Assembly: GCA_964019135.1 (NCBI GenBank)
Contig: OZ025263.1
Coordinates: 26,721,639-26,785,638, forward strand
Length of the DNA stretch: 64,000 nucleotides
Direction of reading: 5' to 3'
Source: Arenicola marina
Taxonomy: Eukaryota; Annelida; Polychaeta; Arenicolidae
Shown here: positions 36,401 to 64,000 of the stretch, piece after piece
Layout: the number at the start of each line of letters is the position of its first letter
Numbering within the stretch: position 1 is the first letter of the stretch
Notes under the pieces: model-generated
What the model was told of the DNA's origin: nothing
The model's database searches: none
The model's input: the letters and a program-made list of their open reading frames with translations, nothing else
Position numbers and translations under genes: made by a program

Positions 36401-37980
36401 TCTGCCCATACCCACTCCTGGCACTCCCATTCCCTCCATGCCCACTCCTGGCACTCCCATTCCCTCCATGAGCACTCCTCGCACTCCCAATCCCTCCATG
36501 CCCACTCCTGGAACTCCCATTCCCTCCAAACCCACTCCTGGCACTCCCATTCCGCCCGTACCCACTCCTGGCACGCCCGTTCCGCCCATACCCTCTTCTG
36601 GCACTCCCATTCCGTCCGTACCCACTCGTGGGAGCCCCATTCTGCCCATACCCACTCCTGGCACTCCCATTCCCTCCATACCCACTTCTGGCACGCCCAT
36701 TCCGTCCATACTCTCCCCTGGCACTCCCATTCCGCCCATACCCACTCCAGACACACCCATTCTGCCCATACCCACTCCTGACACCCCCATTCCGTCCATA
36801 CCCACTCCTGGCTCTCCCATTCCTTTCATACCCACTCCTGGCACTCCCATTCCGTCCATACCCACTCCTGGCACTCCCATTCTGCCCATACCTACTCCTG
36901 GCGCGCCCATTCCCTCCATACCCAATCCTGGCACTCCCATTCACTTCATGCCCACTCGTGGCACTCCCATTCCCTCCATACCCACTCGTGGCACTCCCAT
37001 TCTGCCCATACCCTCTCCTGGCATCCCATTCCGCCCATGCCCACTCCTGGCACTCCTATTCCCTCCATACCTATTCCTGGCACTCCCATTCCGCCCATTC
37101 CCACTCCTGGCACTTATATTACCTCCATACCCACTCGTGGCACTCCCATTCCCTCCATACCCACTCCTGGCACCCCCATTCCTTCAATACCCACTCCTGG
37201 CACTCCCATTTTGTCCATACCCTCTCCTGGCACTCCCATTCCGTCCATACCCTCTCCTGGCACTCCCATTCCGTCCATACCCACTCCTGGCACTCCCATT
37301 CCCTCCATGCCCACTTCTGGCACTCCCATTCCGTCCATACCCACTTCTGGCACTCCCATTTCGTCCATACCTTCACCTGGCACTCCCATTCCACCCATGC
37401 TTTCTCCTGGCACTCCTATTCCGTCCATACTCACTCCTGGCACTCCCATTTCGTCCATACCCACTCCAGGCACTCTCATTCTACCCATACCCACTCCTGG
37501 CACTCCCATTCCCTCAATACTCTCCCCTGACACTCCCATTCCATCCATACCCTCTCCTGGCACTTCCATTCCGCCCATGCCCACTCCTGGCACTCCCATG
37601 CTGCCAATACCCACTTCTGGCACTCCCATTCCCTCAATACTCTTCCCTGACACTCCCATTCCTTCCATACCCTCTCCTGGCACTTCCATTCCGCCCATAC
37701 CCATTCCTGCCACTCCCATTCCCTCCATACCCACTCCTGACACCCCCATTCCGTCTATACCCACTCCTGGCACTCCCATTCCTTGCATTCCCACTCCTGG
37801 CACTCCCATTCCGTCCATACCCACTCCTGGCACTCCCATTCTGCCCATACCCACTCCTGGCGAGCCCATTCCCTCCATACCCACTCCTGGCACTCCCAGT
37901 CTGCCCATACCCTCTCCTGGCACTCCCATTCATTCCATGCCCACTCCTGGCACTCCCATTCTGCCCATACCCTCTCCTGG

Positions 37981-40900
37981 CAATCCCATTCATTCCATGC
38001 CCACTCCTGGCACTCCCATTCCCTCCATATGCACTCTTGACACTCCCATTCTGCCCATACCCACTCCTGACACTCCCATTCCGCCTATACCCACTCCTGG
38101 CACTCCCATTCCCTCCATACCCACTCCTGGCACTCCCATTCTCTCCATGCCCACTCCTGGCACTCCCATTCTCTCCATACCCACTCCTGGCACTCCCATT
38201 CCGCCCATACCCACTCCTGGCACTCCCATTCCGCCCATACCCACTCCTGGTACTCCCATTCTGCCCATACCCACTTCTGGCAATCCCATTCCCTCCATAT
38301 GCACTCCTGACACTTCTATTCTGCCCATACCCACTCCTGGCACTCCCATTCCGTCTATGCCCTTCCCTGGCACTCCCATTCCGTCCATACCCTCTCCTGG
38401 CACTCCCATTCCGTCCATAGCCACTCCTCGCACTCCCATTCCGTCCATACCCACTCCTGGCACTCCCATTCCCTCCATATCTACTCCTGGCACACCCATT
38501 CCCTCCATGCCCACTCCTGGCACTCCCATTCCGTCTATACTCACTCCTGGCACTCCCATTCCCACCATACCCACTCCTGGCACTCCCATTCCCTCTATGC
38601 CCACTCCTGGCACTCCCATTCCGTCCATGCCCACTCCTGGCACTCCCATTCCCTCCATACCCACTCCTGGCACTCCCATGCCCTTCATACCCACTCCTGG
38701 CACTCCCATTCCCTCAATACCTACTCCTGGCACTCCCATTCCGCCTATGCCCTCTCCTGGCACTCCCATTCCCTCCATATGCTCTCTTGACACTCCCATT
38801 CTGCCCATACCCACTCCTGACACTCCCATTCCGCTTATACCCACTCCTGGCACTCCCATTCCGTCTATAGCCACTCCTGCCACTCCCATTCCGTCCATAC
38901 CCACTCCTGGCACTCCCATTCCGTTCATACCCACTCCTGGCACTCCCATTCCCTCCATACCCGCTCCTGGCGCTCCCATTCTCTCAATGCCTACTCCTGG
39001 CACTCCCATTTCCTCCATACCCACTCCTGGCACTCCCATTTCGTCCATACCCACTCCTGGCGCTCCCATTCCGCCCATACCCACTCCTGGCACTCCCATT
39101 CCGCCCATACCCACTCCTGTCACTCCCATTCTGCCCATACCCACTTCTGGCACTCCCATTCCCTCCATATGCACTCCTGACACTCCTATTCTGCCCATAC
39201 CCACTCCTGGCACTCCCATTCCGTCTATGCCCACTCCTGGCACTCCCATTCCGTCCATACCCTCTCCTGGCACTCCCATTCCATCCATACCCACTCCTCG
39301 CACTCCCATTCCGTCCATACCCACTCCTGGCACTCCCATTTCCTCCATATCTACTCCTGGCACTCCCGTTCCCTCCATGCCCACTCCTGGCACTCCCATT
39401 CCGTCTATACTCACTCCTGGCACTCCCATTCCCTCCATACCCACTCCTGGCACTCCCATTCCCTCCATACCCACTCCTGGCACTCCCATTCCGTCCATGC
39501 CCACTCCTGGCACTCCCATTCCGTCCATACCCACTCCTGGCACTCCCATTTCCTCCATATCTACTCCTGGCACTCCCGTTCCCTCCATGCCCACTCCTGG
39601 CACTCCCATTCCGCCCATACCCTCTCCTGGCACTCCCATTCCGCCCATACCCTCTCCTGGCACTCCCATTCCGCCCATACCCACTCCTGGCACTCCCATT
39701 CCGCCCATACCCTCTCCTGGCACTCCCATTCCCTCCATACCCACTCCTGGCACTCCCATTCCGCCCATACCCACTCCTGGCACTCCCATTCCGCCCATAC
39801 CCACTCCTGGCACTCCCATTCCGCCCATACCCACTCCTGGCACTCCCATTCCGCCCATACCAACTCCTGGCGCTCCCATTCCGCCCATACCCACTCCTGG
39901 CACTCCCATTCCGTCCATACCCTCTCCTGGCACTCCCATTCCGTCCATAGCCACTCCTCGCACTCCCATTCCGTCCATACCCACTCCTGGCACTCCCATT
40001 CCCTCCATATCTACTCCTGGCACTCCCCTTCCCTCCATGCCCACTCCTGGCACTCCCATTCCGTCTATACTCACTCCTGGCACTCCCATTCCCTCCATAC
40101 CCACTCCTGGCACTCCCATTCCCTCTATGCCCACTCCTGGCACTCCCATTCCGTCCATGCCCACTCCTGGCACTCCCATTCCCTCCATACCCTCTCCTGG
40201 CACTCCCATTCCGTCTATACCCACTCCTGGCACCCCCATTCCTTCAATACCCACTCCTGGCACTCCCATTCCGTCCATACCCTCTCCTGGCACTCCCATT
40301 AAGTCCATACCCACTCCTGGCACTCCCATTCCCTCCATACCCACTCCTCGCACTCCCATTGCCTCCATACCCACTCCTGGCACTCCCATTCCGTCCATAC
40401 CCACTTCTGGCACTCCCATTTCGTCCATACCCACTGCTGGCACTCCCATTTCGCCCATACCCTCTCCTGGCACTCCCATTTCGTCCATACCTTCTCCTGG
40501 CACTCCGATTCCACTCATGCCTTCTCCTGGCACTCCTATACCGTCCATACTCACTCCTGGCACTCCCATTTCGTCCATATCCACTCCTGGCACTTCCATT
40601 CCGTCCATACCCTCTCCAGGCACTCCCATTCTCTCAATACTCTCCCCCGACACTCCCATTCCGTCCATGCCCTCTCCTGGCACTTCCATTCCGCCCATAC
40701 CCACTCCTGGCACTCCCATTCTGCCAATACCAACTTCTGGCACTCCCATTCCCTCAATACTCTCCCCTGATACTCCCATTCCGTCCATACCCTCTCCTGG
40801 CACTTCCATTCCGCCCATACCCACTCCTGACACTCCCATTCTGCCCATACCCACTCCTGACACCCCCATTCCGTCTATACCCACTCCTGGCACTCCCATT

Positions 40901-41370
40901 CCTTTCATACCCACTCTTGGCACTCCCATTCCGTCCATACCCACTCCTGGCGCGCCCATCCCCTCCACACCCAATCCTGTCACTCCCATTCCGCCCATAC
41001 CGTCTCCTGGCACTCTCATTCTGCCCATACCCACTCCTGGCACTCCCATTCCGTCCATACCCACTCCTGGCACTCCCATTCCGTCTATGCCCACCCCTGG
41101 CACTCCCATTCCGTCCAATCCCACTCCTGGCGCTCCCATTCCGTCCATACCCTCTCCTGGCACTCCCATTCCCTCCATACCCACTACTGGCACTCCCATT
41201 CTCTCCATACCCACTCCTGGCACTCCCATTCCCTCCATACCTACTCCTGGCACTCCCATTGCGTCTATGCCCACTCCTGGCACTCCCATTCCCTCCATAC
41301 CTACTCCTGGCACTCCCATTCCATCTATACCCACTCCTGGCACTCCCATTTCGCCCATACCCACTCCTGG
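37981..41370 (+). repeat. Higher-order repeat within the array, copy 1 (113 units)
   Basis: 3,390 bp that reappear, variant by variant, at 41,371-45,060. Diagnostic units include CAATCCCATTCATTCCATGC, the CCATATGCACTCTTGAC unit and ATTAAGTCCATACCC. Confidence 0.9.
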
Positions 41371-44300
41371 CAATCCCATTCATTCCATGCCCACTCCTGG
41401 CACTCCCATTCCCTCCATATGCACTCTTGACACTCCCATTCTGCCCATACCCACTCCTGACACTCCCATTCCGCCTATACCCACTCCTGGCACTCCCATT
41501 CCCTCCATACCCACTCCTGGCACTCCCATTCTCTCCATGCCCACTCCTGGCACTCCCATTCTCTCCATACCCACTCCTGGCACTCCCATTCCGCCCATAC
41601 CCACTCCTGGCACTCCCATTCCGCCCATACCCACTCCTGGTACTCCCATTCTGCCCATACCCACTTCTGGCAATCCCATTCCCTCCATATGCACTCCTGA
41701 CACTTCTATTCTGCCCATACCCACTCCTGGCACTCCCATTCCGTCTATGCCCTCCCCTGGCACTCCCATTCCGTCCATACCCTCTCCTGGCACTCCCATT
41801 CCGTCCATAGCCACTCCTCGCACTCCCATTCCGTCCATACCCACTCCTGGCACTCCCATTCCCTCCATATCTACTCCTGGCACACCCATTCCCTCCATGC
41901 CCACTCCTGGCACTCCCATTCCGTCTATACTCACTCCTGGCACTCCCATTCCCATCATACCCACTCCTGGCACTCCCATTCCCTCTATGCCCACTCCTGG
42001 CACTCCCATTCCGTCCATGCCCACTCCTGGCACTCCCATTCCCTCCATACCCACTCCTGGCACTCCCATGCCCTTCATACCCACTCCTGGCACTCCCATT
42101 CCCTCAATACCTACTCCTGGCACTCCCATTCCGCCTATGCCCTCTCCTGGCACTCCCATTCCCTCCATATGCTCTCTTGACACTCCCATTCTGCCCATAC
42201 CCACTCCTGACACTCCCATTCCGCTTATACCCACTCCTGGCACTCCCATTCCGTCTATAGCCACTCCTGCCACTCCCATTCCGTCCATACCCACTCCTGG
42301 CACTCCCATTCCGTTCATACCCACTCCTGGCACTCCCATTCCCTCCATACCCGCTCCTGGCGCTCCCATTCTCTCAATGCCTACTCCTGGCACTCCCATT
42401 TCCTCCATACCCACTCCTGGCACTCCCATTTCGTCCATACCCACTCCTGGCGCTCCCATTCCGCCCATACCCACTCCTGGCACTCCCATTCCGCCCATAC
42501 CCACTCCTGTCACTCCCATTCTGCCCATACCCACTTCTGGCACTCCCATTCCCTCCATATGCACTCCTGACACTCCTATTCTGCCCATACCCACTCCTGG
42601 CACTCCCATTCCGTCTATGCCCACTCCTGGCACTCCCATTCCGTCCATACCCTCTCCTGGCACTCCCATTCCATCCATACCCACTCCTCGCACTCCCATT
42701 CCGTCCATACCCACTCCTGGCACTCCCATTTCCTCCATATCTACTCCTGGCACTCCCGTTCCCTCCATGCCCACTCCTGGCACTCCCATTCCGTCTATAC
42801 TCACTCCTGGCACTCCCATTCCCTCCATACCCACTCCTGGCACTCCCATTCCCTCCATACCCACTCCTGGCACTCCCATTCCGTCCATGCCCACTCCTGG
42901 CACTCCCATTCCGTCCATACCCACTCCTGGCACTCCCATGCCCTTCATACCCACTCCTGGCACTCCCATTCCCTCCATACCCACTCCTGGCACTCCCATT
43001 CCGCCTATGCCCTCTCCTGGCACTGCCATTCCGTCCATACCCACTCCTGGCACTCCCATTTCGTCCATACCCTCTTCTGGCACTCCCATTCCGCCCATAC
43101 CCACTCCTGGCACTCCCATTCTGCCCATACCCACTCCTGGCACTCCCATTCCGTCTATGCCCTCCCCTTGCACTCGCACTCCGTCCATACCCTCTCCTGG
43201 CACTCCCATTCCGTCTATACCCACTCCTGGCACCCCCATTCCTTCAATACCCACTCCTGGCACTCCCATTCCGCCCATACCCTCTCCTGGCACTCCCATT
43301 CCGCCCATACCCTCTCCTGGCACTCCCATTCCGCCCATACCCACTCCTGGCACTCCCATTCCGCCCATACCCTCTCCTGGCACTCCCATTCCCTCCATAC
43401 CCACTCCTGGCACTCCCATTCCGCCCATACCCACTCCTGGCACTCCCATTCCGCCCATACCCACTCCTGGCACTCCCATTCCGCCCATACCCACTCCTGG
43501 CACTCCCATTCCGCCCATACCAACTCCTGGCGCTCCCATTCCGCCCATACCCACTCCTGGCACTCCCATTCCGTCCATACCCTCTCCTGGCACTCCCATT
43601 CCGTCCATAGCCACTCCTCGCACTCCCATTCCGTCCATACCCACTCCTGGCACTCCCATTCCCTCCATATCTACTCCTGGCACTCCCATTCCCTCCATGC
43701 CCACTCCTGGCACTCCCATTCCGTCTATACTCACTCCTGGCACTCCCATTCCCTCCATACCCACTCCTGGCACTCCCATTCCCTCTATGCCCACTCCTGG
43801 CACTCCCATTCCGTCCATGCCCACTCCTGGCACTCCCATTCCCTCCATACCCTCTCCTGGCACTCCCATTCCGTCTATACCCACTCCTGGCACCCCCATT
43901 CCTTCAATACCCACTCCTGGCACTCCCATTCCGTCCATACCCTCTCCTGGCACTCCCATTAAGTCCATACCCACTCCTGGCACTCCCATTCCCTCCATAC
44001 CCACTCCTCGCACTCCCATTGCCTCCATACCCACTCCTGGCACTCCCATTCCGTCCATACCCACTTCTGGCACTCCCATTTCGTCCATACCCACTGCTGG
44101 CACTCCCATTTCGCCCATACCCTCTCCTGGCACTCCCATTTCGTCCATACCTTCTCCTGGCACTCCGATTCCACTCATGCCTTCTCCTGGCACTCCTATA
44201 CCGTCCATACTCACTCCTGGCACTCCCATTTCGTCCATATCCACTCCTGGCACTTCCATTCCGTCCATACCCTCTCCAGGCACTCCGATTCTCTCAATAC

Positions 44301-45060
44301 TCTCCCCCGACACTCCCATTCCGTCCATGCCCTCTCCTGGCACTTCCATTCCGCCCATACCCACTCCTGGCACTCCCATTCTGCCAATACCAACTTCTGG
44401 CACTCCCATTCCCTCAATACTCTCCCCTGATACTCCCATTCCGTCCATACCCTCTCCTGGCACTTCCATTCCGCCCATACCCACTCCTGACACTCCCATT
44501 CTGCCCATACCCACTCCTGACACCCCCATTCCGTCTATACCCACTCCTGGCACTCCCATTCCTTTCATACCCACTCTTGGCACTCCCATTCCGTCCATAC
44601 CCACACCTGGCACTCCCATTCTGCCCATACCCACTCCTGGCGCGCCCATCCCCTCCACACCCAATCCTGTCACTCCCATTCCGCCCATACCGTCTCCTGG
44701 CACTCTCATTCTGCCCATACCCACTCCTGGCACTCCCATTCCGTCCATACCCACTCCTGGCACTCCCATTCCGTCTATGCCCACCCCTGGCACTCCCATT
44801 CCGTCCAATCCCACTCCTGGCGCTCCCATTCCGTCCATACCCTCTCCTGGCACTCCCATTCCCTCCATACCCACTACTGGCACTCCCATTCTCTCCATAC
44901 CCACTCCTGGCACTCCCATTCCCTCCATACCTACTCCTGGCACTCCCATTGCGTCTATGCCCACTCCTGGCACTCCCATTTCCTCCATACCTACTCCTGG
45001 CACTCCCATTCCATCTATACCCACTCCTGGCACTCCCATTTCGCCCATACCCACTCCTGG
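41371..45060 (+). repeat. Higher-order repeat within the array, copy 2 (123 units)
   Basis: Matches copy 1 at an offset of 3,390 bp up to about 42,930, then 3,660 bp, then 3,690 bp. Differences are whole 30-bp units: a net gain of nine units around 42,931-43,260 and one at about 44,611. Almost no point differences, so the duplication is recent. Confidence 0.9.
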
Positions 45061-46925
45061 CACTCCCATTCCGCCCATACCCTCTCCTGGCACTCCCATT
45101 CCCCCCATACCCACTCCTGGCACTTCCATCTCGTCCATACCCTCTCCTGGCACTCCCATTCCGTCCATACCCTATCCTGGCACTCCCATTCCCTCCATGC
45201 CCACTCCTGGCGCTTCCATTCCCTCCATGCCTAATCCTGGCACTCCCATTCCCTCCATACCCACTCCTGGCACCCCCATTCCTTCAATACCCACTCCTGG
45301 CACTCCCATTCCGCCCATATCCACTCCTGGCACTCCCATTCCGCCCATACCCACTCCTGGCACTCCCATTCCGCCCATACCAACTCCTGGTACTCCCATT
45401 CCCTCCATACCCACTCCTGGCACTTCCATTCCGTCCATACCCATTCCTGGCACTCCCATTCCGCCCATACCCTCTCCTGGCACTCCCATTTCGTCCATAC
45501 CCTCTCCTGGCACTCCCATTTCGTCCATACCCTCTCCTGGCACTCCCATTCCGCCCATACCCTCTCCTGGCACTCCCATTTCGTCCATACCCTCTCCTGG
45601 CACTCCCATTCCGCCCATACCCACTCCTGGCACTCCCATTCCGCCCATACCAACTCCTGGCACTCCCATTCCCTCCATACCCACTCCTGGCACTCCCATT
45701 CCGTCCATACCCACTCCTGGCACTCCCATTCCGCCCATACCCTCTCCTGGCACTCCCATTTCGTCCATACCCTCTCCTGGCACTCCCATTCCGCCCATAC
45801 CAACTCCTGGCACTCCCATTCCGTCTATACCAACTCCTGGCACTCCCATTCCACCCATACCAACTCCTGGCACTCCCATTCCGCCCATACCCTCTCCTGG
45901 CACTCCCATTCCCTCCATACCCACTCCTGGCACTCCCATTCCGCCCATACCCACTCCTGGCACTCCCATTCCGCCCATACCCACTCCTGGCACTCCCATT
46001 CCGCCCACACCCACTCCTGGCACTCCCATTCCGCCCATACCCTCTCCTGGCACTCCCATTCCGCCCATACCCTCTCCTGGCACTCCCATTCCGCCCATAC
46101 CCACTCCTGGCACTCCCATTCCGCCCATACCCTCTCCTGGCACTCCCATTCCCTCCATACCCACTCCTGGCACTCCCATTCCGCCCATACCCACTCCTGG
46201 CACTCCCATTCCGCCCATACCCACTCCTGGCACTCCCATTCCGCCCATACCCACTCCTGGCACTCCCATTCCGCCCATACCAACTCCTGGCGCTCCCATT
46301 CCGCCCATACCCACTCCTGGCACTCCCATTCTGCCCATACCCACTCCTGGCACTCCCATTCCGCCCATACCCACTCCTGGCACTCCCATTCCGCCCATAC
46401 CCTCTCCTGGCACTCCCATTCCGCCCATACCCACTCCTGGCACTCCCATTCCACCCATACCCTCTCCTGGCACTCCCATTCCGCCCATACCCTCTCCAGG
46501 CACTCCCATTCCGCCCATACCCACTCCTGGCACTCCCATTCCGTCCATACCCTCTCCTGGCACTCCCATTCCGTCCATACCCTCTCCTGGCACTCCCATT
46601 CCCTCCATACCCACTCCTGGCACTCCCATTCCGCCCATACCAACTCCTGGCACTCCCATTCCGTCTATACCCTCTCCTGGCACTCCCATTCCCTCCATAC
46701 CCACTCCTGGCACTCCCATTCCCTCCATGCCCTCTCCTGGCACTCCAATTCCCTCCATACCCACTCCTGGCACTCCCATTCCCTCCATACCCTCTCCTGG
46801 CACTCCCATTCCCTCCATACCCACTCCTGGCACTCCCATTCCGCCCATACCCACTCCTGGCACTCCTATTCCCTCCATACCCACTCCTGGCACTCCCATT
46901 CCGCCCATACCCACTCCTGGCAATC

Positions 46926-47625: not shown

Positions 47626-47886
47626 TCCATTTCGAAAGATGTTTTTGTTGTATTAAATACACAGAGCTCGTTATTTTTATTGTTTTATTTATGAAAATTA
47701 TAATGCAAGAAATTACAGCTGAATTTTCAAGAATCTTGAAATTTGCCTTCGGACGACAGCAGCGGTAAAAGCGGAGCTTGCTTAGCGCCACCGGAGCATT
47801 ATTAATCTTTAGGGTCCAAACCATTCCGTTTCTCCACTGGAGCACAGGATAAAAATCGTTTCTGTCTGCGCCGATGCACCCCCTGC

Positions 47887-48475
47887 TTCACATTGCGGCC
47901 AGAGCGTCACGTGGTTCACCTTCTGCTTCACATAGCGGACAGCGCGTCACGTGGTTCACCTAACCTTCAGCTTCACATAGCGGCCACAATGTCACGTAGT
48001 TCACCCAGCCTTCTGCTTCACATAGCGGCCACAGTGTCACGTAGTTCACCCAGCCTTCTGCTTCACATAGCGGCCAGAGCGTCCCGTGGTTCACCCAGCC
48101 TTCTGCTTCACATAGCGGCCAGAGCGTCCCGTGGTTCACCCAGCCTTCTGCTTCACATAGCGGCCAGAGCGTCCCGTGGTTCACCCAGCCTTCTGCTTCA
48201 CATAGCGGCCAGAGCGTCCCGTGGTTCACCCAGCCTTCTGCTTCACATAGCGGCCAGAGCGTCCCGTGGTTCACCCAGCCTTCTGCTTCACATAGCGACC
48301 AGAGCGTCCCGTGGTTCACCCAGCCTTCTGCTTCACATAGCGGCCAGAGCGTCCCGTGGTTCACCCAGCCTTCTGCTTCACATAGCGGCCAGAGCGTCCC
48401 GTGGTTCACCCAGCCTTCTGCTTCACATAGCGGCCAGAGCGTCACGTGGTTTAACCAGCCTTCTGCTTCACAATA
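47887..48475. repeat. 45-bp minisatellite, about 13 units
   Basis: Unit TTCTGCTTCACATAGCGGCC plus AGAGCGTCCCGTGGTTCACCCAGCC split over the period. Early units are diverged, middle ones nearly identical. Open frames with a 15-residue period on both strands are by-products. It ends about 100 bp left of the MULE insertion site. Confidence 0.95.
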
Positions 48476-48570: not shown

Positions 48571-48579
48571 GCAGCTCAC
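48571..48579. other. Left copy of the 9-bp target-site duplication (GCAGCTCAC)
   Basis: Exactly repeated at 58125-58133, directly outside the right terminal repeat. Nine bases is the normal duplication length for Mutator-like elements. Confidence 0.92.
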
Positions 48580-48667
48580 GGTGCGCCTTAAATTCGCCAG
48601 AAAACCTCGGCATGAATATTCATGAATGTTACGTCACCAGCGGGTCACGCTACATCAATATTCATTG
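48580..48667 (+). repeat. MULE left terminal inverted repeat
   Basis: Starts GGTGCGCCTTAAATTCGCCA and ends CATCAATATTCATTG; the gene's ATG lies 19 bp further in, so the promoter is probably within the repeat. Confidence 0.92.
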
Positions 48668-48685
48668 CTGCCCTGGCCAGCAGAA

Positions 48686-51600
48686 ATGGCGGCCGGCGTA
48701 GGAGTTATGCCCGCGTCGGGCTTGATCCTGACATCTGCTGCTGCTGCTGCTGAGGAAATTCGCTCCCACGAAGAAGCAACAGGATTTCACTATGTCGCAG
48801 ATTACTGTTATGCGGCATGCAATAGTGAGAAAGGTATCTAATGATGATATTTTCTACTTTATGTCTACTATAGACTACAACACAGTGCTCACAACCCACA
48901 GGCACAGTAAATCAGTAGAGGGGGGAGGGGCGGGGGTAGGGGGCCCCCTAAACACACTGTGTTTAGTATACGTTGTGGGGCCCCCTACAGTTGTTTGCAA
49001 GTACCACCCCCCCCCCCCCAACCCCACCGCGCGGTGGCCGCCTTCGTCCCTCCACTGATTTGCTGTGCCTGTGATACAGACTGAATATTATATTGTCACA
49101 GATAATTTTGTGTCCGGCTTCATTAAACAAATTTCAATTCAAGATAGAAATTTTACTTACTGATATATACATATACTTGATACATACAAGATGTTGAATC
49201 TACAGGCTGAGATCTATGACAATGACATAATTTATAACTTATATATTAGTAAGCTTATAGATCCTAGATCTATATCATTAGATCTAGAATCTATATGATA
49301 TTAAATTTACCGGAATTCATTTTTTTAGTTCTTTTCATTTATTCCTTATTATGATAAGCCTACTTAAGTTTATATACTATCGGTAAGCCAGATTTGGTAT
49401 ATTTTAGATATGAATGGAGACCAGTTTATTCGATGGGAATTAGGTAAAGGAAGCAACAGTGGGGTTGATCCTGCTGTACATATACCATTCGACAAGATAC
49501 CTTTTGTCCTCGTGGAGACAAAGGTTTACATGTGTCACCAAGGTCGTGACAGAGGTATGTCTACAAAGCGTAGGCAGGCCGAAGCTAGACAGCAACAGAT
49601 GGTAGGTAAAAGGTTTTTCACTACCAATAGTATATATATATATATGCTAAGCAGGGATAGTCTCCCGATGTAGGTCTATAGTTGTTGTATTTCCTTAATT
49701 TATATCATTTTATTATAGACTGGTAATGCTGCTTATAATTGAAGATTGTCTTGGTGCATTAAGACTTACATGCCTGTGTTCTCTGTCCAAATTTTGAAAA
49801 TCACATTATTTTTTTAGGAAGATCACTCTTTCAGAAAAATGAGGTGTAATCCACAGCCTACAAAAAAAGTAGGCTGTCCAGCTAGAATAGTGTCAAAGAA
49901 AATTGTCAAATTTCCAGACTTTCAGGTTTGATATATCATATGTGCGATGTTTCTGTTGACAGTTTGGTGTTATTCCTATTTACTGCATGCAATCAACCTG
50001 CCATCTGTGAAATTATATCAGTGTGATGTTGAAATTTATTTTAGTTCCACATTTTAATGTTTTTTTAATTATCTTTTTCTTGCTTGGAATGTTAATTTAT
50101 TCTTACAGTTTAATTGCTGTTCTATACCCCATAGATCTCATGTGAAATACCACTGGATGTACTTTAGAATCATTTCAGAAAGGTACCAGTAGTATTGAAT
50201 CTTCGAGCTATGGCTCAATCAAATCACCCTCATTTGAGCATTTTTTGTTGAGCTATTAATTAAAACTGCCTATTTTTCAGTAGCAATCAGAGGCAAAAAC
50301 ACTTTAAAACCGATGTAACATATGTACCAATGTAGCATAAAATATTCTGTGTTTGTTCTTACTGGATAGAGTAGACTTATAATATTTCCATTTGACAAAG
50401 AAAACAAATGACTTTCATTGCTATCACAGTGAAAGGGCAGTGGAATTGTTAATGCCATGTTCATGCGCATATCCCTATTCAGAAATCTAGTTTCGGGGGC
50501 ACTGTTTGTACCCAGCTGGGTAGGCGTACTTGGGCTGACATGATTCGTCAGCTGTGACGCTGATTGATGCTATATGGACCCTCACTTTTCAGCTGTCGGA
50601 GGGTGCCTCTAACGCCGAGCGAATGAGGAAAGAACTTCGAGCGAGACTAAAATGTGGTAAACCTGTCAGAATGGATGTGCAGTACCGACTGTTTCTTCCG
50701 GATGCACAGCACCAGACTGGTCATTTGTCAGGAGATGTATGTTGACCTGCTTCATTATATATGTGCACGTTCTTGTACAAAAATCTTTGGGGTTTGCTGT
50801 TGAGCGTGGCAGTACATAGGATAAGTTAGCTACATTACATGTAATTGAATTTGGTGTGTTTGGTAAGGCTGATGGTGGTAATTTTGAGCCCGAGCAAATA
50901 TCAGTTTGTAATACTTAAAATGATCCTATGATACGTACAGCTCCAAGTGCGACATCAATTGGTTCTGTAAGTATAAAACTGCTTATGTATCTTTGAACTT
51001 ACATTGCATTTGACAGATGTTGGGCTACACTGAACCTGTCGATGTCAGGGTGCGGGACAAAATAATGGCGCTCTTGGCAAATGGTGTTACCGCTCGTCGT
51101 GAAATTGAAGCGTGTGTCAGGGAGTACGTGACGACAACGTTGTTTCACGGACAGGAACCTCCCAAACGATCACGCCGAAGGTTAATATATTTCATTTTAA
51201 CTTCTGTTTGGCGTTAATGAGCCTCTGTATTTGGAAGTTGTATTGTGTCAACGTATTTTGAATACTGTACGTCTCACTGAGTTGCCAAATGTTGAGGTTA
51301 TATCAAGCATATCGAGTCCACGAAGGACATTTACATGATTCATCTAACTCTGTGTCAATGGCGACATGCATTATTCGAAAGAGTATAAGACTTAGTCATT
51401 TATTCCAAAGGGTATGATCTATGTGTCTGAAAATGCTTTTTACGATCTACGCTTATAATTACAGGTTCTACCCTCACCCCAGTGACATCGAAAACATAAT
51501 CACAAAGTACAAGGGGCAAAGGCGACTTTCTAAGATTGACCAGGTTAATGTACAACACTTGGTCGCGGAATTAGATGGTTCAAAATTCTTCCGCCCATGC

Positions 51601-54600
51601 CAAACAACCGTTGACGAAATAAAACCGCAGCCAGGACCACACAGCGAGGAGGTCGGGGGTGAAGAAGAAGACGTTGGCGACATGAAAAAGTGTCTGATTC
51701 CGGGAAAGAAGTTTCTGTTTGTATATCAAGTAGGTCATTTTCAGTTGTCTAAACCTGAGAAACGCAATAGTGATAAGGGCAATCGAAAGTCGTTGCTGGT
51801 GAAATCTGCTTTTACCACCTGCATACAGATTTCAAGTACTTTTTTTGTATGAGATACCAACTGTGTCAACTTGATCATTCTTCTGTCTTTAGAGCCCTGA
51901 GATGAAACATCTTTACCAGATTTACGGAAAGCAAATGGTGCTCTTGGATGCAACATACAGAACCTGCCGGTATGCCCTGCCAGTATTCTTCCTGGTAGTT
52001 CGCACCAATGTCAACTATCAGCCAGTGGCCGTATTTGTGGTGGAGCAAGAGACAAAGGATCTGATACAGGAGGCTCTCGAAATTGTTCGAGAGTGGACGC
52101 CGGAGGTGACACCGCAGTACGGCATGGTCGATTTCTCGCATGAAGAAATTGAAGCCCTGGAATCTACTTACAGTGGTAAAGATACCGCTTCGCTAATCAT
52201 GCTTGCCACAACATTGAATATTGTATAAAGTGTTCCATTAAGGGAACGAGTGACGCCACCGCAACAGAAGTCTGATCTGATGCTTGATTACATAATTCCT
52301 ATAATTAAATATAGACAAATATACATTTAGTGGCCATATGTGAATGTCTATTTATGTTACCCCTCACATTCACGAAATAGGAATAATGGCAACATTATAA
52401 ACCTTTGACACCGAAATAACTAGATCAATACGACTGTGCACTTATGTAACTAGTTTATCAAGCCGTGTATAATGCTTGGGTCATAGGTATCAACGTATTT
52501 ATCTGCGACTTTCATCGGGAACAAGCCTGGACCCGCTGGATTGCAAAAGGCACAAATGGGATTGCCTCCTCAGAAGAAGATGTCACTTTAGTTAAGCGCT
52601 TGTTGCGTCGCGTAGCCAATGCCAGCGGCAGAGATGAGGTCGACCAAGCGATAGAGGCACTGAAGACATCTGAGTTATATCAGGAGAATGAGAAGCTGAA
52701 AAATTGGTTTGACAAGCATTGGGAACCTGCGATAGCGGTAAGGCCTACGCTTTTTCCGCCATTGTTTGAACATTGCACAAGGTGTAATGCCTGTCTCTTA
52801 AAAGTGCGTGCTGATGTAGTCAGTCGTTCTATTGAGCTGTAAGGCTGTCAAGTATATGCATTCACAAAATGGATTATTGTGACGTATCTAGCCAAATTTG
52901 GACCCGCTGCCCCTTCACGTGCAGAGACAATTATGTATTATGGAGGAAAGAAGCCTATGACCTTAATTCCTTGGTGATGTCACATGCGAGGCTTTTTTTC
53001 ACTGAATATGTATTTGCTGCAGCGTTGGAGCAATGCGTTTCGGCCGGACAGTTTGCTTCTCTCGGTGAACACCAACAATGGGGTGGAAAGAATAAATGAG
53101 GACTTAAAATATGGCTTCTTGCAAAGAAAGCGGCAGTGCAGCTTGAGTGAGCTGCTTGAAACTATCACAAAGCAGTTTTTGCCTGCAAAATTTCAAAGGT
53201 TTGCTGTTGCTAATTTCGCTTTTCACTTGCACGTCTGCTCTTGTTCGAAAGTTTGCAACTTTCCCTGGGTTATGTTGATGTTATATGTTTTCACGCGAAG
53301 AGACAGTGAAGGGGTTTACATTTCTGTGTCAATGAAATGTTAAGCCTCATTCTATACCCAGTGGTCTCGCAAGAGCAATTGTCTGCACGTTGTAACCACG
53401 AGTTAAATATCCAGTCATTGCGCAAAGACAGCCGTCTCAAACTTTTGAACCCACGTGCCTTGAACCCTTGAACCCATGTGCCTATATATGCGGCTGACGT
53501 AATTTCTCCAGAATGTTGATATTCGACATGTATTTTCGTATGTACCACCGCTAGCTGTCAGTGCTCTCCAACAAATTACATTTGATGCACAACGGTACTC
53601 GGTCTCGGTAGCCCTGTGTTTGTCCTGTATTAGCCCTTTGTTTTTTCAGCTACGTTGAGCAAAACGTTCGCTCCTGCGGCATGTACCGCAAATGGGATAA
53701 CAGCGTTCCCAACTGGCTCAGGGAGAGACCAAGGGCGGTGTTTATGGATGCGCGTTCCAAAATGGCACACTTAGATCCCAAGCAGGTGACAATGACTTAA
53801 GTTTCCCCCTTCGAGCAAAGAAATGTTACATTCCTATAAATTTTGATTTATAATTTTGCACAGGTTTTCAATTTTGTTCTGATACATTATGAAATTCTGA
53901 ATGAATTCTGAATGAATGAGTATGAATTTCAGGTTGAATCTGTGAAAATGGCTACGTCTGGAACCTTCTTCGTGCGAAGTGAAATGCAGCAAGAGGTGGT
54001 ATATGAGGTTGACTTCGGAGACGACTCAAATGTGTGTTCATGTACCTGCCCTTCCTTCAAGAGAGAGCGAGTCCTCTGCAAACACTTCTACGCCGTTTTT
54101 GCCAGGGCTGACGAACACGGACACTCTTGGGACCAGATCAGTTCAATTTATAGGCTCAACCCGGTTCTGAGTCTGGACTGGGGAATCCTGCAACAAGATC
54201 GGCCGTTGGACGGCGTTGCGACACCGGAGAAGTCGCGAAGTGATGTCATGCAAGCCGCCGCTCCTCCGGGGCCATTACCGGATGACGCGTGTCTTCCACG
54301 TCGAACATCTCAATTTAAGAGGAGGCTGATGGAAGCCCGTTCGAAGTTAAAACTCATGCTGGACTACACTTATCGAATGAAGGACAACGACCGGGAGGAT
54401 GACCTGGGTGATTGGTTGGAAACCCTTGACGTTGCCACAGAGAAAGCTGCGCTATTGGTGGAAACGGATAACGGTTTGCCACTCGAAGTTTCAGAAAAGA
54501 AACGGAAGATTTGTCTTGAGACTGACATTAAAAACATTGGAACTTTGCCCATGCCTCCCAAAAAGCACATTGCTTCAGGACGTGTCGGCCAGCGCGCTGA

Positions 54601-56683
54601 AACCATGAGGGCTCTATTCAAGCCCAAGGTTACAGCAGCTGACAACGGGACTGTTCCCGTTCCCACCATGCCCATTCCCCATTGCAAGATCGGGATAGCC
54701 AAAGCTTCCGCAGGTATGAAATTAACTCGCTCGGCTGTATGTACGTTCTTCAATCGGTACGTCTTGGAACATGAGAAAATTGTTTTAAAAATGTAAATTA
54801 TGTGCTTTAGTTTACAGACAATTTACGCATTTTTATTTTGTGTCGTATTACTGCACAATAGACCAGACGCCGAAGACCAACAAGCTGAGTCTAACAGCAC
54901 GCCGTGTTAAAAAGAAAAACGACACGTCGTTGAAATTGAAATACGCAAAAGGTGGGTCTTCACCAATATCTACGTATCTCAAAATAATACAATGGACATA
55001 ATGTGTAAAGACGCGTCCACAACCGTGGGTGAGTAGTTTTCAAGATAATGTAAATATATTCGGTATACATACGACGAAGTTTGTACATTACACGTTCTAA
55101 TTGTCTTTTATTCCTGAATCCTTGTCTCTTTCAGCACCTGTCACAATCGGATCAAGAGTTCGACTCGGACAAGGCTCTCCAGCTGTCCAGGACGTACTGT
55201 TGGCGCGCTACAAGTTTGTCGACCAAGGCCATCCCGCGCCTCGCACAGACTTGCCTGGTCTGTCTCTTCAAGATGTGCAAACGCTCCAACCCGGACAGTG
55301 GCTCAATGACAAGGTACACTGTGATGGAATAAGTATTTCCTCAACATAAATATGTCACACAAGTCCCATTTAGTAAACAGTAAATTCTTGTTTCAGGTGA
55401 TACACGCGTATCTTGAAAAACTGTGTCAAGAGAGGCCGCGCGACTTGTTCGTCCTGCCGTGCTTTCTGGCGAACGTTTTGAACGAGAGACGCGATATGAG
55501 CGGATGGCTCTTCCCAAAGGTGATCCTCTTTACAGTTGGTTTTGAGTATTGGCGAATAGAGTCGCCTTTATACGCATATATAACAATTCGATTTTGTATG
55601 TGCGTCAGCCGCCCCGGCATCGCCGACAGTGCTTAATGCACCGAGTTTTAGATGCGATATTATGACAGTCCTTTGATATGTAATGATGACCTAAACGTTA
55701 TTGTGTGTGTGTGTGGCGGGGGGGGGGGGCTAAGGTTACGATCAAGCATTCCTTGAATCCATTCGTGGCTCACTACTTAGTTGTACCTTAGATTACTGGG
55801 CAGCACTATACACACACTTGTTCTCACGTAAATAAAGCTGCATTTGTTTCTTATATTTCAGATGAACGTACAGGATCATCGATTGGTCATGATGCCAATC
55901 TGCTCGTCTAGCCATTGGGTCTTGCTGGTGGCCGAAACCGAACGTAACACGGTTGCGTTGCTGGACTCGCTGCCTCAGTCGGTCGCTAAGCCAGCCCGGT
56001 ACAGGCGATACGTACAGCTATGGAAGTGAGTGCAAGCGTCCACGTCATTTTCATTTCTCTTCGTAGAAGTTCTTGAGGTGTGTCAATAAGTCGTCTTGAG
56101 GTGTGGGAATAAGTTGTGTTGAGGTGTACCATTATCAATTATCTTGCAGCGCTTACATGGCGGTACGGGCCATTTCCCATGGCATTTCCCACCGAGACTG
56201 GACGGAATCCGAGCTTGCCTCGAACATCCAACTGGATGGCAACAGCTGTGGAGTGTTTGTGTTGATGGTAATTGACTTCAATGAGCGTCAGTATCAAAAT
56301 TAGCTAGATTGAAACTAATATTTTGGAGCAAAAGATATGTATATACGTACTTTGTTTCTGGAACTATATTCATGAATATAAGAATATAAGATCACACGGC
56401 AAGTGCTTAAAGTAGCAGCTCGCAAAAAACCACTCTGCGAAACCTTTGCCTCAAAAATGTTGCTTTTAATGGGAAAAAGCGAAAAAATGCGAAAGCCTCA
56501 TGTAACCAGTAAAAACGTGTCTTAGTGTACAAATAAACAACCATCTTATTTTAGAATGCCGAAGCCCTCGTCTGCCGAGTTCCGCTATCGGAGGTGTCGC
56601 CCGATAGGACCGCCCTCTATCGCCGCTTCCTCTATGCACGCCTAGCTGGCGGCGTGTCTGCACTCGGCGATGAACATTATTGA
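48686..56683 (+). CDS. MULE transposase with SWIM finger and C-terminal Ulp1/C48 protease
   Basis: Seventeen exons: 48686-48833, 49408-49601, 49818-49925, 50593-50736, 51017-51180, 51465-51729, 51893-52175, 52487-52737, 53023-53198, 53650-53785, 53933-54713, 54862-54951, 55135-55313, 55397-55519, 55862-56025, 56150-56267, 56555-56683. All are GT-AG, phases agree, 3,453 nt, 1,150 aa. N-terminal Cys-rich region with MCHQGRDRG and VGCPARIV (about 90-150) resembles FAR1/WRKY-GCM1 DNA-binding domains. DDE core: D360 in LLDATYR, D421 in MVDFSHEE, C442/H445 in CDFHREQAW, E541 in TNNGVERIN. SWIM: C660-x-C662...C672-x-H674. A basic linker with KKRK follows. Protease: PGQWLND, then H1032 (SSHWVLLV), D1049 (LLDSLPQ), Q1096 and C1102 (QLDGNSCGVFVL), the full C48 set. 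Transposition of the element is expected; the protease role (SUMO or related substrate) is unknown. The join between exons 12 and 13 that fuses the two halves rests on phase only. Confidence 0.85.
48897..49073. mobile_element. Small foldback element nested in MULE intron 1, 177 bp
   Basis: Ends CACAGGCACAGTAAATCAGT and its reverse complement ACTGATTTGCTGTGCCTGTG (one change). The interior has further GGGGCCCCCT and CCCCC/GGGGG complementarity. No clear target duplication. Confidence 0.7.
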
Positions 56684-58038
56684 TTTATACTGACAACTTA
56701 GACCTCAACCCGGTCATGTGCTGATGTATTATGAGGCTTCGATATTTTGCTCACGACACCACCGTAGCAAAGAGACGTAGCCCCTCCCCATCCCTCGGGA
56801 GTACCGCTACATTTAACCCACGCGGGGCCCGCCCCGAGCTCCCCGTAGGACGCTCTGACACCGTCAGAGCTTGCCCCTCCCCTTGCTTGGTGTCATCCCG
56901 GTGTGTTTTCCGGCTAAAGATATGCCGCCCCCACCCAGCGCATATTGTGGCTGGTCTCCCTCTCAAGTGGTAGGGGCCCGCTCGCTGGACTTCTATCCCC
57001 GCGGGTGCCTTACACAAACTAACGCCCCACTCCTCTAGGCTACGGTATATAACAGCAATCTGTACCATGGACGAAAACTCTTATGTATAATGCATAATGT
57101 CTCAAAATTGATTGTCATTCGTTATTAACCATACAAACATGCTGCAATAAAAAAAATTGTGAACAGAAATGAATTTTGTTATACATGTATGCCCTAAAAA
57201 TTATTTATTATTTTCCCCTTTGTGCGTAAATGCATTTAGGGGCAAGCGCTTTATTGGATACAGTTATAACTTTCTGACCTCGTTCTCTTCTGACCTGAAG
57301 TATTGCATCACGTCACAAATTGCGACCACCCCCCCCCCCCCCCGGCCACCGCCCCCTATTTCCCCTTTTACAGTGAATGCTCGAGCTTCCGAGGGGAAGT
57401 GTTGCAACCCCCTCCCCCACTCTTACAAAGTTAACATATGTAGTATTTCTGGTCCCAGGCCCGAATGGACGCCGAAAGTTCTACCCGCCTGGCTAGAACT
57501 TTCTACCCAGGCGGGTTTCGAACCGGCGACCTTCCGCATCCCGAGCGGACACCTTACACGTTAGGCCAAAGGGAAATTTCCCATTTGGCCCGAGGCGCTT
57601 GGTGTCTTTCATCCACCGGGCCTGGGCCGAGATATCACATATACACTGTATAAAAGTGCCGTTCTCTAAGCAACCCCCCCCCCCCCCCCCCCCCCGCCGC
57701 CTGGTCGCGCAAGTTTTCAGACCGCAACCCCTCCCCTCACCTTTGCTAATTCCTAGTTCCGCCCCTAACTACCCTGTCCTGTCTCAGTGTAGCCCTATAG
57801 TACAGGCACAATCTGTGACGAAGAGACCGTCTTTGTCAGTATAAATATCAGGTGAACGTTTTCACTGTCAATGACATATTTCGTGTGGAAAAGATTATTT
57901 GATAAGTTTGTAGCAGATGTTGCGGTTGCGTAGGATCTGAACTCCCTTTATATCAGGCTGTATCCAATATACGGCGTCACGGGAAAACACCTTGATGTGC
58001 TTTGACAAGCGCAGCTGGGCACGCCGATGTAAGGGTCA
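56684..58038. other. MULE 3' non-coding region
   Basis: Contains C homopolymers (57,329-57,343 and 57,667-57,693), a GC-rich stretch at 56,760-57,010 and a SINE. No second gene seen. Confidence 0.5.
57440..57615 (-). mobile_element. tRNA-derived SINE (second family) inside the MULE
   Basis: On the minus strand a box A-like TGGCCTAACGTGTAAGGTG is followed by box B GGTTCGAAACC with tRNA-like spacing. A CCAGGCGGGTAGAA inverted motif lies downstream. It differs from the main SINE family in the window. Confidence 0.6.
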
Positions 58039-58124
58039 CAATGAATATTGATGAGACGTGACGCTGGTGATGTAATAAGCATGAATATTCATGTCGAGGT
58101 TTTCTGGCGAATTTAAGGCGCACC
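58039..58124 (-). repeat. MULE right terminal inverted repeat
   Basis: Reverse complement of the left end, finishing AATTTAAGGCGCACC. Confidence 0.92.
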
Positions 58125-58133
58125 GCAGCTCAC
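58125..58133. other. Right copy of the 9-bp target-site duplication (GCAGCTCAC)
   Basis: Identical to 48571-48579. Confidence 0.92.
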
Positions 58134-59666: not shown

Positions 59667-62600
59667 ATGAACAATAGTGAGTTAAAAGCCCTCGTAGAGG
59701 TTGGAAAAGAGTTGGGCTATGCCGGAAAAGAATTACAAGAGTTTGTAGACAAAGAAAAGAAGGAAAGATTAGAGAATCTTAGGTGGGAGGATGAATAGAA
59801 CGAACGACGTATGAGAAGAGAATTTGAATTGACTAAACTAGAGAAAGAGACAGAGTTGGCCAAGGCGAATCAAGATGTTAAAATGGTAGAGAGTAAGGAT
59901 GCCAGTAAGAAAGTGCGACAGGGGTCGTTGCCAAAATTACCTCCCTTTCATGATGGTAAAGATGATATGGATGCGTACTTAAATAGGTTTGAGAGGTTTG
60001 CTAAGAATATGGGTTGGCCGGAGACTGAATGGGCCACGGATTTAAGTGCCTTATTAACTGGAAAAGCGCTGGAAGCGTACTTTAGAATGTCTCCTGAAGA
60101 TTCTAACGACTATAAATTGGTAAAACAAGCCCTTCTGCACAGGTATAATCTTACTGTAGACGGTTACAGGGCGAAGTTTTTCGAGACTCGTGTTGAAGAT
60201 GATGTAACACCAGGTGAACAGATTGCTCGAATGAGTAATTATTTGACTCGTTGGGTCGAACTGTCAGAGACTCAGAAAACTTATGAGGATTTGAGTAAAC
60301 TTTTGGTTGTTGAACAATTCATTCGTTGTTGTCATAAAGGATTGCAGGATTACATCCGGGAAAGGGAACCAGGCTCAATCGCTGAAGTGACTGAGTTGTG
60401 TGATAGGTACATTCAAGTACACCAGTGTACGCTAGATGGTAAGAGAAATGCCAAGACTTATGTATCTAGATTTAAGAGCGAGCATGATACTCTTTCTAAA
60501 CGGTGTTACCGATGTAAAGGTAATGGCCATACTGCCGATCGATGTAAAACCAATTTGAATAAGGTAGAATACTCACAGGTACGAAAGGAGCCTCATTTTC
60601 GTAAAGAAGAAAGGCGTTGTTTTATGTGTGACAAAGTTGGCCATATAGCGAGAGATTGTCGGAACGCTCGACAGAAGGTACCGACAAAAGCCATGGGAAT
60701 GTCAGAAGTAACTAGCAATGAAGAGGTTACGAGTGGTGTCAAAACAGAGTCCGCTGGATGTTGTATGACTAGAATTGATGAAAACCGCTTTGCTGAGTGT
60801 ATACTCGAAGGAGAATTGAAATTAGCAAATGGAGACTCCATTCCTGTTGTCAGTGGAGGGTGTTCCGAGACTAGTACTCAAATTCCAGGTATGCCCGTTT
60901 GTAAAGGTCTCATTGGCAGCACGGTTGTGGAGACGCTGCGTGATACAGGATGTAGTGGCGTGGTAGTACGTTCAAGTCTAGTGAAACCTGAACACTACAC
61001 GGGTGAAAGCCACGTGTGTTTGTTGATTGATGGTACTGCAAAAAGATATCCTGTAGCAAAATTGCAAATTGACACTCCGTATTTCACAGGTAACGTAGAT
61101 GCGTTGTGTATGCAAAGTCCCCTTTATGATCTGATCATTGGGAATATTTCAGGGGCCAGAAATCCTAACGATCCTCTGCCTGACTGGAATCAACTGACTG
61201 ATAGTAAGGTCTGTAATGCTGTTGAAACCAGGTCTCAGCGGAAGCAACGCAGTGACGAGACTGTTCCTTTGCCAACGTCAAGAACTGTAGGTGACGACGT
61301 GACTTTTGAATCGCTTGTAAGTAAACAACAGAATGATAACTCTCTGGAAAAGTTATGGCTTTTAGCTCATTCTGTGAGTTCCCCGAAGGAAAACAAAACG
61401 ACTACTGTTTGTTTCAGGGTTCATGGAGGTTTGTTGTACAGATTGGTGGAGTCTATTATTCCAGGTCGTGAATCTGTAAAGCAATTAGTGGTGCCTCGGT
61501 CCATGCGTCAGCAAGTGCTCACTTTGGCTCACGAGTCACTCATTGGAGGTCATCTGGGAATCAAGAAGACGTGTGATAAGATCCTAACTCAATTTTATTG
61601 GCCTAGTTTACAGAGTGATGTATCAAGATTTTGTCAGTCGTGTGACATCTGCCAACGTACCATCCCCAAGGGCAGAGCTGGTAAAACTCCGTTGACTCAA
61701 TTGCCTTTAATTGACAGGCCTTTCAAGCGTGTGGCAGTTGATTTGATTGGTCCAATTCAGCCATCCACAGATCGTGGTCACCGGTTTGTGTTGACTGTCG
61801 TTGACTATGCGACCCGGTATCCAGAGGCCGTTCCTTTGAAGAGGATTGACACCGAATCCGTTGCCGAAGCACTGTTGAGTATTTACAGTAGAGTAGGATT
61901 TCCTGATGAGATTCTTAGTGACATGGGTTCCCAGTTTACTTCTGATATTATGAAGGAAATTTGCCGTTTGGTCTCAATTAAACAATTAACAACTACCCCA
62001 TACCATCCAATTTGCAATGGTCTTGTAGAGCGCTTTAATGGTGTACTTAAGCAGATTCTGAAACGGTTATGTCATGAAAAGCCCCGTGAATGGGATAGAT
62101 ATCTGCCTGCGGTCTTGTTTGCTTTTCGTGAAGCGACCCAAGAAAGCTTGGGTTTCTCTCCCTTTGAAATGTTGTATGGTCGCACAGTTCGAGGGCCGTT
62201 GCAGGTATTGAAAGAGGTATGGACGAAGGACATTGATTCTGACGAAGTTAAAACTACTTACGAGTACGTTCTTGACTTAAGAAATCGACTGGAAGAAACT
62301 TGTAAGTTGGCACATCAAGAGTTGACAAAAGCACAGAAAAGACAAAAGAGATATTATGATAGAGGTACCAAGGAAAAGCTTATAAAGATGGGAGATAAAG
62401 TGCTCATATTGTTGCCAACGTCTAATAACAAGTTGTTAATGCAGTGGAAAGGTCCTTTTGAAGTGATGCGATGTGTAGCTCCCAATGATTATGCAATTAA
62501 TGTGAATGGAAAACTCAAAGTGTACCATGCGAACTTGTTGAAAGTGTATAATATTCGCACTGACGTAGATTGTGAGTTTGCAGCTACAGCCATAATTGAA

Positions 62601-64000
62601 TGTGATGAAGAGGATGGTGACGAAGATTTGTTGCATTTACCTGGAGGGTCCGGCAAGGAAACCCTAAAGGATGTGATGATAAACCCAGACCTTACAGACG
62701 AACAGAAAAGGCAGGTAGGCCTTCTGCTAGAAGAGTATAGGCACATCTTCTCAGAGTCGCCTGGTTCTACTCATCTTGTAGAACATAAGTTGTCTTTGAC
62801 ATCGAGTGAGCCTGTGAGATCAAAACCTCAACCTTTACCTTATGCTGTTCGCGCAGATGTCAAACGTGAAGTTGAGAAAATGTTAGAGCTTGGTGTAATT
62901 GAGAAAAGCAATTCACCGTATTCGTCTAACGTAGTAATGGTGAGAAAAGCAGATGGAACTTACAGAGTCTGCATAGACTTTCGTAAACTTAATCAAATCA
63001 CTGTATTTGATTCGGAACCTATGCCCTTGGTAGATGACATATTTGCCAAAGTTCGCGGTGATACATACTTTTCGAAGATTGATTTTTCAAAAGGGTACTG
63101 GCAAATACCCATGGAGGAAACTTCTAAGCCGATGACGTCATTTGTCACAGCCGAAGGTTCGTTTCAGTTTGTCAAGATGCCATTTGGGATGGTAAATGCT
63201 AGCGCGACATTTAATCGTATGGTAAGGAAACTGCTGGAAGGCATGTCTCAAGCGGAAGGGTATGTTGACGATGTGCTCGCCCACACGCGATCTTGGGATG
63301 AACAAATGAATGTGTTGCGTGAGCTTTTGGATCGGGTGAGTCGCGCCAACCTGACTATTCGCCCAAGTAAATGTTTTATCGGATACACGGATTTAAAATT
63401 CGTCGGTCACCAAGTGTCGGGAAATGAGATTAAGCCTCATCCTGACAAAGTGTCAGAGATGCTAGAAGCCCCTCGTCCCGTGACTAAAAGGCAAGTAAGA
63501 TCCTTTTTGGGAATGATTGGATATTTTCGGAAATTCATGCCAAATTTCGCTGCTATCGCTGTTCCGTTAACCGACTTGACTCGAAAAGGTGAACCGAATC
63601 GAGTAAAGTGGGGAGACGCACAAGAAAAGTCTTTCTTCAATTTAAAGGCTCTGTTATCCAAGCAACCAGTGTTGAGAGTTCCAAATTTTTCGAAAGCATT
63701 CTACTTGCAGACAGATGCTTCTGATGTGGGTATCGGTGCTGCTCTGATGCAGGAACATTCCGATGGGAAATATCCCGTTGCATATATCAGCAAAAAATTA
63801 ACTTCCCGAGAAAGAGCATATTCTGTTGTTGAGCGTGAATGTCTGGCATTGATTTGGGCTATAAAGCGCTTACAAACTTATCTTTATGGAAGAGAGTTCA
63901 TGCTTGAAACTGATCACCAACCCTTGATTTATATTCACAAATGTAAAGTCACGAATAGTCGCATCATGAGGTGGGCTATGTTCTTACAAAACTATCGATT
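59667..64000 (+). mobile_element. Ty3/gypsy LTR retroelement, Gmr1-like, cut by the window edge
   Basis: Coding parts in order: gag (about 59.67-60.47 kb) with a SCAN-like capsid segment; two CCHC knuckles (about 60.5-60.66 kb); aspartic protease with a DTG motif (about 60.9-61.15 kb); integrase (about 61.5-62.25 kb) with its HHCC zinc region and DDE core; reverse transcriptase (about 62.75-63.5 kb) with the YVDD box; start of RNase H (from about 63.69 kb). Integrase lies before reverse transcriptase, the reverse of ordinary Ty3/gypsy and the mark of the Gmr1-like group known from deuterostomes. The visible part looks nearly whole, with about one break, so it is probably young. The 3' end and LTR are outside the window. 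Treated as a fossil. Confidence 0.88.

Follow-up and report, generated by a model that had tools for sequence, protein, structure and literature searches.

Mutator-like (MULE) DNA transposons make target-site duplications of 8-11 bp and carry SWIM fingers in several animal groups (PMC6446971; here and below, papers are cited for the accessible parts of their text), and one of them, the mosquito element Muta1, is active in yeast, where its insertions are flanked by 8-9 bp duplications and its DDE residues are required (PMC5225508). The animal groups Phantom, Ghost, Spectre, Curupira, MULE-Mollusca and MULE-Cg (Dupeyron et al. 2019, PMC6446971) have a MULE core, a SWIM finger in some cases, inverted repeats in several and duplications of 8-10 bp where these are given. 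An association of such transposons with Ulp1 proteases has also been described. Ulp1 is encoded by Mutator transposons of hydra and lancelet, according to a paper that cites Repbase Reports of 2008 and 2009, and the legend of its Figure 1e places Ulp1 domains in 'Mutator TPases', leaving unstated whether these are animal or not (PMC2836005). In the Kaonashi-MULEs a C48 protease domain is likewise found with the MULE domain; these elements are without inverted repeats and have the protease reversed relative to mudrA, and in other ULP-bearing plant MULEs both orientations occur (PMC2528002). Finally, Ginger1 is an animal DNA transposon whose transposase carries a C-terminal Ulp1 (or OTU) domain behind a core of the Gypsy-integrase type (PMC2836005).

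The element described here, defined by its terminal inverted repeats, occupies positions 48580-58124 of the window, i.e. the whole 64,000-nucleotide stretch of Arenicola marina DNA that was analysed. It is predicted to encode a single protein that joins a CaRF-type DNA-binding domain (ALS2CR8), a MULE transposase core, a SWIM finger and an Ulp1 protease (see the table). We regard the ALS2CR8 domain on a MULE as the new point, the protease being of a kind already reported: the suggestion of an earlier note on this DNA that an animal MULE with Ulp1 might be an undescribed lineage is only partly supported, and such a MULE is not new as a kind, given the hydra and lancelet Mutators, which are animal Mutator elements with a Ulp1 domain like this one, as compared by description alone. 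The Kaonashi elements, to which the same note had likened it, are a poor fit: the present element has inverted repeats, its protease lies in the orientation of the transposase (as in some of the other ULP-bearing plant MULEs) and both belong to one predicted fusion, which places it outside the Kaonashi definition. It also differs from Ginger1 in having a MULE core, and from the animal groups of Dupeyron et al. in that Ulp1/C48 and ALS2CR8 are named in no row of Table 1 of that paper, a silence that is weak evidence because plant groups known to have Ulp1 are also listed there without it; the same table includes unnamed DUFs and inserts. Nothing on Ulp1 in MULEs was met in the accessible parts of PMC12221973 (on placozoan chromatin loops), PMC12062965 and PMC3424704.

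Features of the element and of its predicted gene (positions in the window)
Feature	Position	Strand	Remarks
Target-site duplication, left copy, GCAGCTCAC	48571-48579	.	9 bp, abuts element end
Terminal inverted repeat, left	48580-48674	+	about 95 bp
Gene model	48686-56683	+	17 exons, 1,150 aa; start codon uncertain
Exons 1-6	48686-48833, 49408-49601, 49818-49925, 50593-50736, 51017-51180, 51465-51729	+	
Exons 7-12	51893-52175, 52487-52737, 53023-53198, 53650-53785, 53933-54713, 54862-54951	+	
Exons 13-17	55135-55313, 55397-55519, 55862-56025, 56150-56267, 56555-56683	+	
ALS2CR8 (CaRF-type DNA-binding) domain	49416-51510	+	aa 53-268, exons 2-6; Pfam PF15299
RNaseH-like DDE core	51718-52515	+	ZSWIM1-3_RNaseH-like and MULE Pfam matches
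E541, proposed third catalytic residue	53086-53088	+	within NNGVERIN, exon 9
SWIM zinc finger, CxC-x9-CxH	54002-54106	+	aa 647-681; Pfam 5.4e-7
Ulp1/C48 protease domain	55296-56593	+	aa 968-1121, exons 13-17; Pfam 2.1e-12
AATAAA, candidate polyadenylation signal	57146-57151	+	463 bases 3' of the stop codon
Terminal inverted repeat, right	58032-58124	-	about 93 bp
Target-site duplication, right copy, GCAGCTCAC	58125-58133	.	9 bp, abuts element end

Ends, gene and transposase core of the element

The 9-mer that flanks the element is found exactly twice in the window (counted on the plus strand), both times flush with an element end, and a flush 9-mer match would arise by chance with a probability of about 4.7e-6 at the composition of the window. 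The two inverted repeats are identical over their outermost 27 nt, agree at 92% of positions in an ungapped alignment over 64 nt and at 88.7% over the 97 columns of the full alignment; roughly one column in nine is therefore mismatched, suggesting that the copy may be old. When this 27-nt terminus was searched on both strands with up to 3 mismatches, exactly two matches were obtained (none in 100 shuffles), and no further copy was found within the window.

Between these ends, a gene of 17 exons can be assembled in which all 16 introns have GT-AG borders and the 1,150-aa frame runs without internal stop to a stop codon that ends at 56683. Since the splice sites of this computational model were picked by eye to maintain the frame, the open frame by itself is no independent proof of a gene; independent support comes from the domain matches, which run across exons. 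G+C content is 50.4% in the exons vs 37.2% in the introns. An ATG at 49410 is an alternative start candidate.

Three minor features lie in the non-coding parts of the element. An open stretch rich in His, Tyr and Trp codons in intron 3 (50109-50182), perhaps an alternative exon or a remnant, was omitted from the model because no in-frame exon could be built from it. Intron 1 contains a palindrome with 33-nt arms (85%) at 48897-49073, possibly a small nested element; no direct repeat of at least 5 bp was found to flank it. A tRNA-like B box, GGTTCGAAAC, lies at about 57515-57524 on the minus strand in the 3' non-coding part and possibly belongs to a nested SINE; ARAGORN returned no tRNA there at default settings and a poorly paired candidate at a relaxed threshold.

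A Pfam scan of the predicted protein with curated cut-offs returned five families above threshold, namely ALS2CR8, ZSWIM1-3_RNaseH-like, MULE, SWIM and Peptidase C48, and the matches to the first three persisted when the regions were scanned separately. Gemini_AL1_M and Peptidase_C57 (whole protein), as well as Gemini_AL1_M, rve_3 and DUF5575_C (separate regions), stayed below the Pfam cut-off and were taken as chance or cross-matches. In the catalytic region, the ZSWIM1-3_RNaseH-like match covers aa 338-436 (E=3.8e-10) and the MULE match (PF10551) aa 357-445 (E=1.1e-8, 35.8 bits against a cut-off of 27.6, rising to 37.8 bits for the core region alone). The core contains D360, D421 and a C442-x2-H445 motif, the latter between the second and the third proposed catalytic residues; from the patterns familiar in MULEs, we take D360, D421 and E541 to be the catalytic triad.

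The DDE core, the 9-bp duplication (8-11 bp are expected of MULEs) and the inverted repeats of about 95 bp are, with the SWIM finger, what identifies the element as a MULE. Other DDE transposons of animals and fungi must nevertheless be considered, in particular those of the KDZ (Zisupton) type, for which a link with Ulp1 exists and for which Pfam includes models. That the element is one of these is hardly credible: KDZ families gave no match at E<=1 with the protein or at E<=10 with the core, where Pfam gives the MULE and ZSWIM1-3 cores. Moreover, Zisupton duplications are 8 bp long (PMC12730594) as against 9 bp here, and a KDZ/Zisupton identity was rejected on both grounds.

We thus conclude from the sequence, with considerable confidence, that the element is a complete and probably autonomous MULE, of which one copy is seen in the window. 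It is unlikely, by comparison, that the element is a host gene derived by domestication, or a relic, in which transposon ends persist and mobility has been lost. The single copy visible in the window, the 88.7% identity of the inverted repeats and the existence of host genes with the same domain families (CaRF and ZSWIM1/3, judging by the Pfam names) could all be read in that sense; however, insertion is what leaves inverted repeats around a gene and a perfect 9-bp duplication flush with them, and the motifs of both enzymes are present. Most of what the earlier note had claimed on these points is upheld, i.e. a MULE with a SWIM-finger transposase, encoded by one spliced and apparently intact gene (as far as the open frame goes) and flanked on either side by a perfect 9-bp duplication. 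It was also right that terminal inverted repeats are present, but their length, which it gave as about 87 bp, is about 95 bp in the alignment.

Searches of virus and prokaryote collections brought no relatives to light: none of the 453-aa transposase core in viral contigs (one pattern match), none of the 228-aa C48 region (one pattern match), none of the 234-aa DNA-binding region in bacterial and archaeal genomes (71 pattern matches), and no match of a 30-nt repeat end. As these collections hold viruses and prokaryotes, nothing follows on the distribution of the element in animals. Rfam gave no match at the gathering threshold.

The CaRF-type domain and a proposed origin of CaRF

The strongest domain match of the protein, which had escaped the earlier note, lies N-terminal to the DDE core. 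PF15299 (ALS2CR8) is matched with E=2.7e-34 and 119.6 bits against a cut-off of 28.9, over positions 6-231 of a 235-position profile, and with 7.1e-36 when the region is scanned separately (the window coordinates of this domain in the table derive from the exons of the gene model). No solved structure was found to match the region, the sole match at E<=10 having E=2.1. We take ALS2CR8 to be the gene name of CaRF.

CaRF is a vertebrate neuronal transcription factor with an activation domain, and was reported in 2010 to resemble none of the families of transcription factors; orthologs were recognised in vertebrates, lancelet and sea anemone, each species having one CaRF-like product, and proteins of this type were reported from animals and not found in plants (PMC2877716). 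The predicted protein of the element matches the ALS2CR8 family over almost its full length and yet differs from CaRF in having both a transposase and a protease, neither of which is described for CaRF in the accessible text of PMC2877716. Among the papers listed by a literature search confined largely to open texts, we found no published link between CaRF/ALS2CR8 and a transposon, and met none in the accessible parts of PMC2877716 and PMC3235121. A precedent of another type exists: animal transcription factors of the FHY3 and FLYWCH types have been proposed to be domesticated MULE/Mutator transposases. The terms 'CaRF' and 'SWIM' are absent from the main text of that study (PMC10027918), whereas the domain of the present element is ALS2CR8.

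The finding that the transposase of a MULE carries an ALS2CR8 domain suggests that such an enzyme was domesticated. We lean slightly towards a scenario in which CaRF arose by domestication of the DNA-binding half of a Mutator transposase from this lineage, and the catalytic half may have given rise to ZSWIM1/3; the descent of CaRF from such a transposase is itself likely. Several points weigh on the other side. A Pfam match tells homology and not direction, and the transposon could instead have picked up a set of CaRF exons. The ALS2CR8 family of Pfam may itself include many transposon proteins, which would count against the domestication reading. A living transposon family might have yielded several CaRF-like products, and the single product per species known in 2010, lancelet and anemone included (PMC2877716), argues in the same direction. 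Finally, CaRF sites, which we had predicted in the transposon ends, were not found there above chance. This prediction was our own and not a rule of the family; three published motifs (PMC2877716) and their common six-base core were scored over two lengths of each element end, and in none of the 16 motif-by-region tests did a CaRF-site (CaRE) match in the terminal repeats rise above chance, 103-283 of 300 shuffles scoring equally high. A CGAGG present in each end was dropped as evidence, since the shuffles equalled the real ends in all 16 tests. For CaRF, described as an orphan factor without a homologous family, a transposon that carries its domain next to transposase parts that look complete offers a concrete and testable origin. 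If domestication did occur, a complete-looking transposon would still have both halves, joined to a SUMO protease.

The Ulp1 domain and a possible mode of action

The claim that a Ulp1 protease is built into the element proved correct. In addition to the Pfam match, the protease region matches yeast Ulp1 (1euv_A; phmmer 2.4e-8) and SENP2 (2.2e-7), and H1032, D1049, Q1096 and C1102, which we presume to be the catalytic residues of the C48 domain, follow each other in order and in register with yeast Ulp1 in the alignment. The further claim that transposase and SUMO-type protease are made as one polypeptide agrees with the predicted protein, which has both the MULE and the C48 domains. This is the point at which a different reading has to be weighed: transposase and Ulp1 may belong to separate genes, with the protease derived from a captured piece of a host gene that has its own transcript, as in a pack-MULE. 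Capture of host genes by MULEs is known (PMC2528002), the 265-aa stretch between SWIM and C48 matched no Pfam family, and exon 12 (90 nt), which forms part of this linker, is weakly supported. Even so, we consider two genes improbable because (i), transposase and protease lie on the same strand (ii), exons 11-17 are joined by GT-AG introns and their frame is open whether exon 12 is kept or not, as it is in the whole model and, (iii) the protease domain is unbroken across five exons. These arguments are not decisive, since the splice sites were chosen by us. We retain a single predicted fusion protein, one more intact-looking case of a kind already reported, and the element provides a testable system to understand why SUMO proteases are kept by transposons.

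A mode of action may be suggested from the domain content. The N-terminal ALS2CR8 domain and the SWIM finger would bind the terminal repeats, and the D360-D421-E541 core would excise the element and insert it with a 9-bp stagger, by analogy with Muta1 in yeast. The fused Ulp1 domain could remove SUMO either from its own transposase or from host factors present at the site that act in repair or silencing, and this removal would favour transposition. Vertebrate CaRF would, in the same proposal, be a domesticated relative of the DNA-binding half of the transposase.

Neighbouring sequence in the window

Other features of the window lie outside the element. Two open frames on the plus strand (22825-23304 and 26566-26973) partly resemble a 5MP/BZW (5MP/eIF5-like) gene, with HEAT_5MP1_2 at 1.5e-5 and W2 at 0.002, both below the Pfam cut-off. 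A very large minisatellite with a 30-bp unit, about 447 copies and 87% matches, in which several frames are open, extends over 33500-46922, and a second one (47883-48472; 45-bp unit, about 13 copies) stops about 100 bp short of the transposon. On the other side, an open Gypsy-type retrotransposon frame on the plus strand (59799-63998) runs past the end of the window; its domains are arranged in the order SCAN, CCHC, integrase, reverse transcriptase and RNase H, and the position of the integrase ahead of the reverse transcriptase is that of the Gmr1 type.
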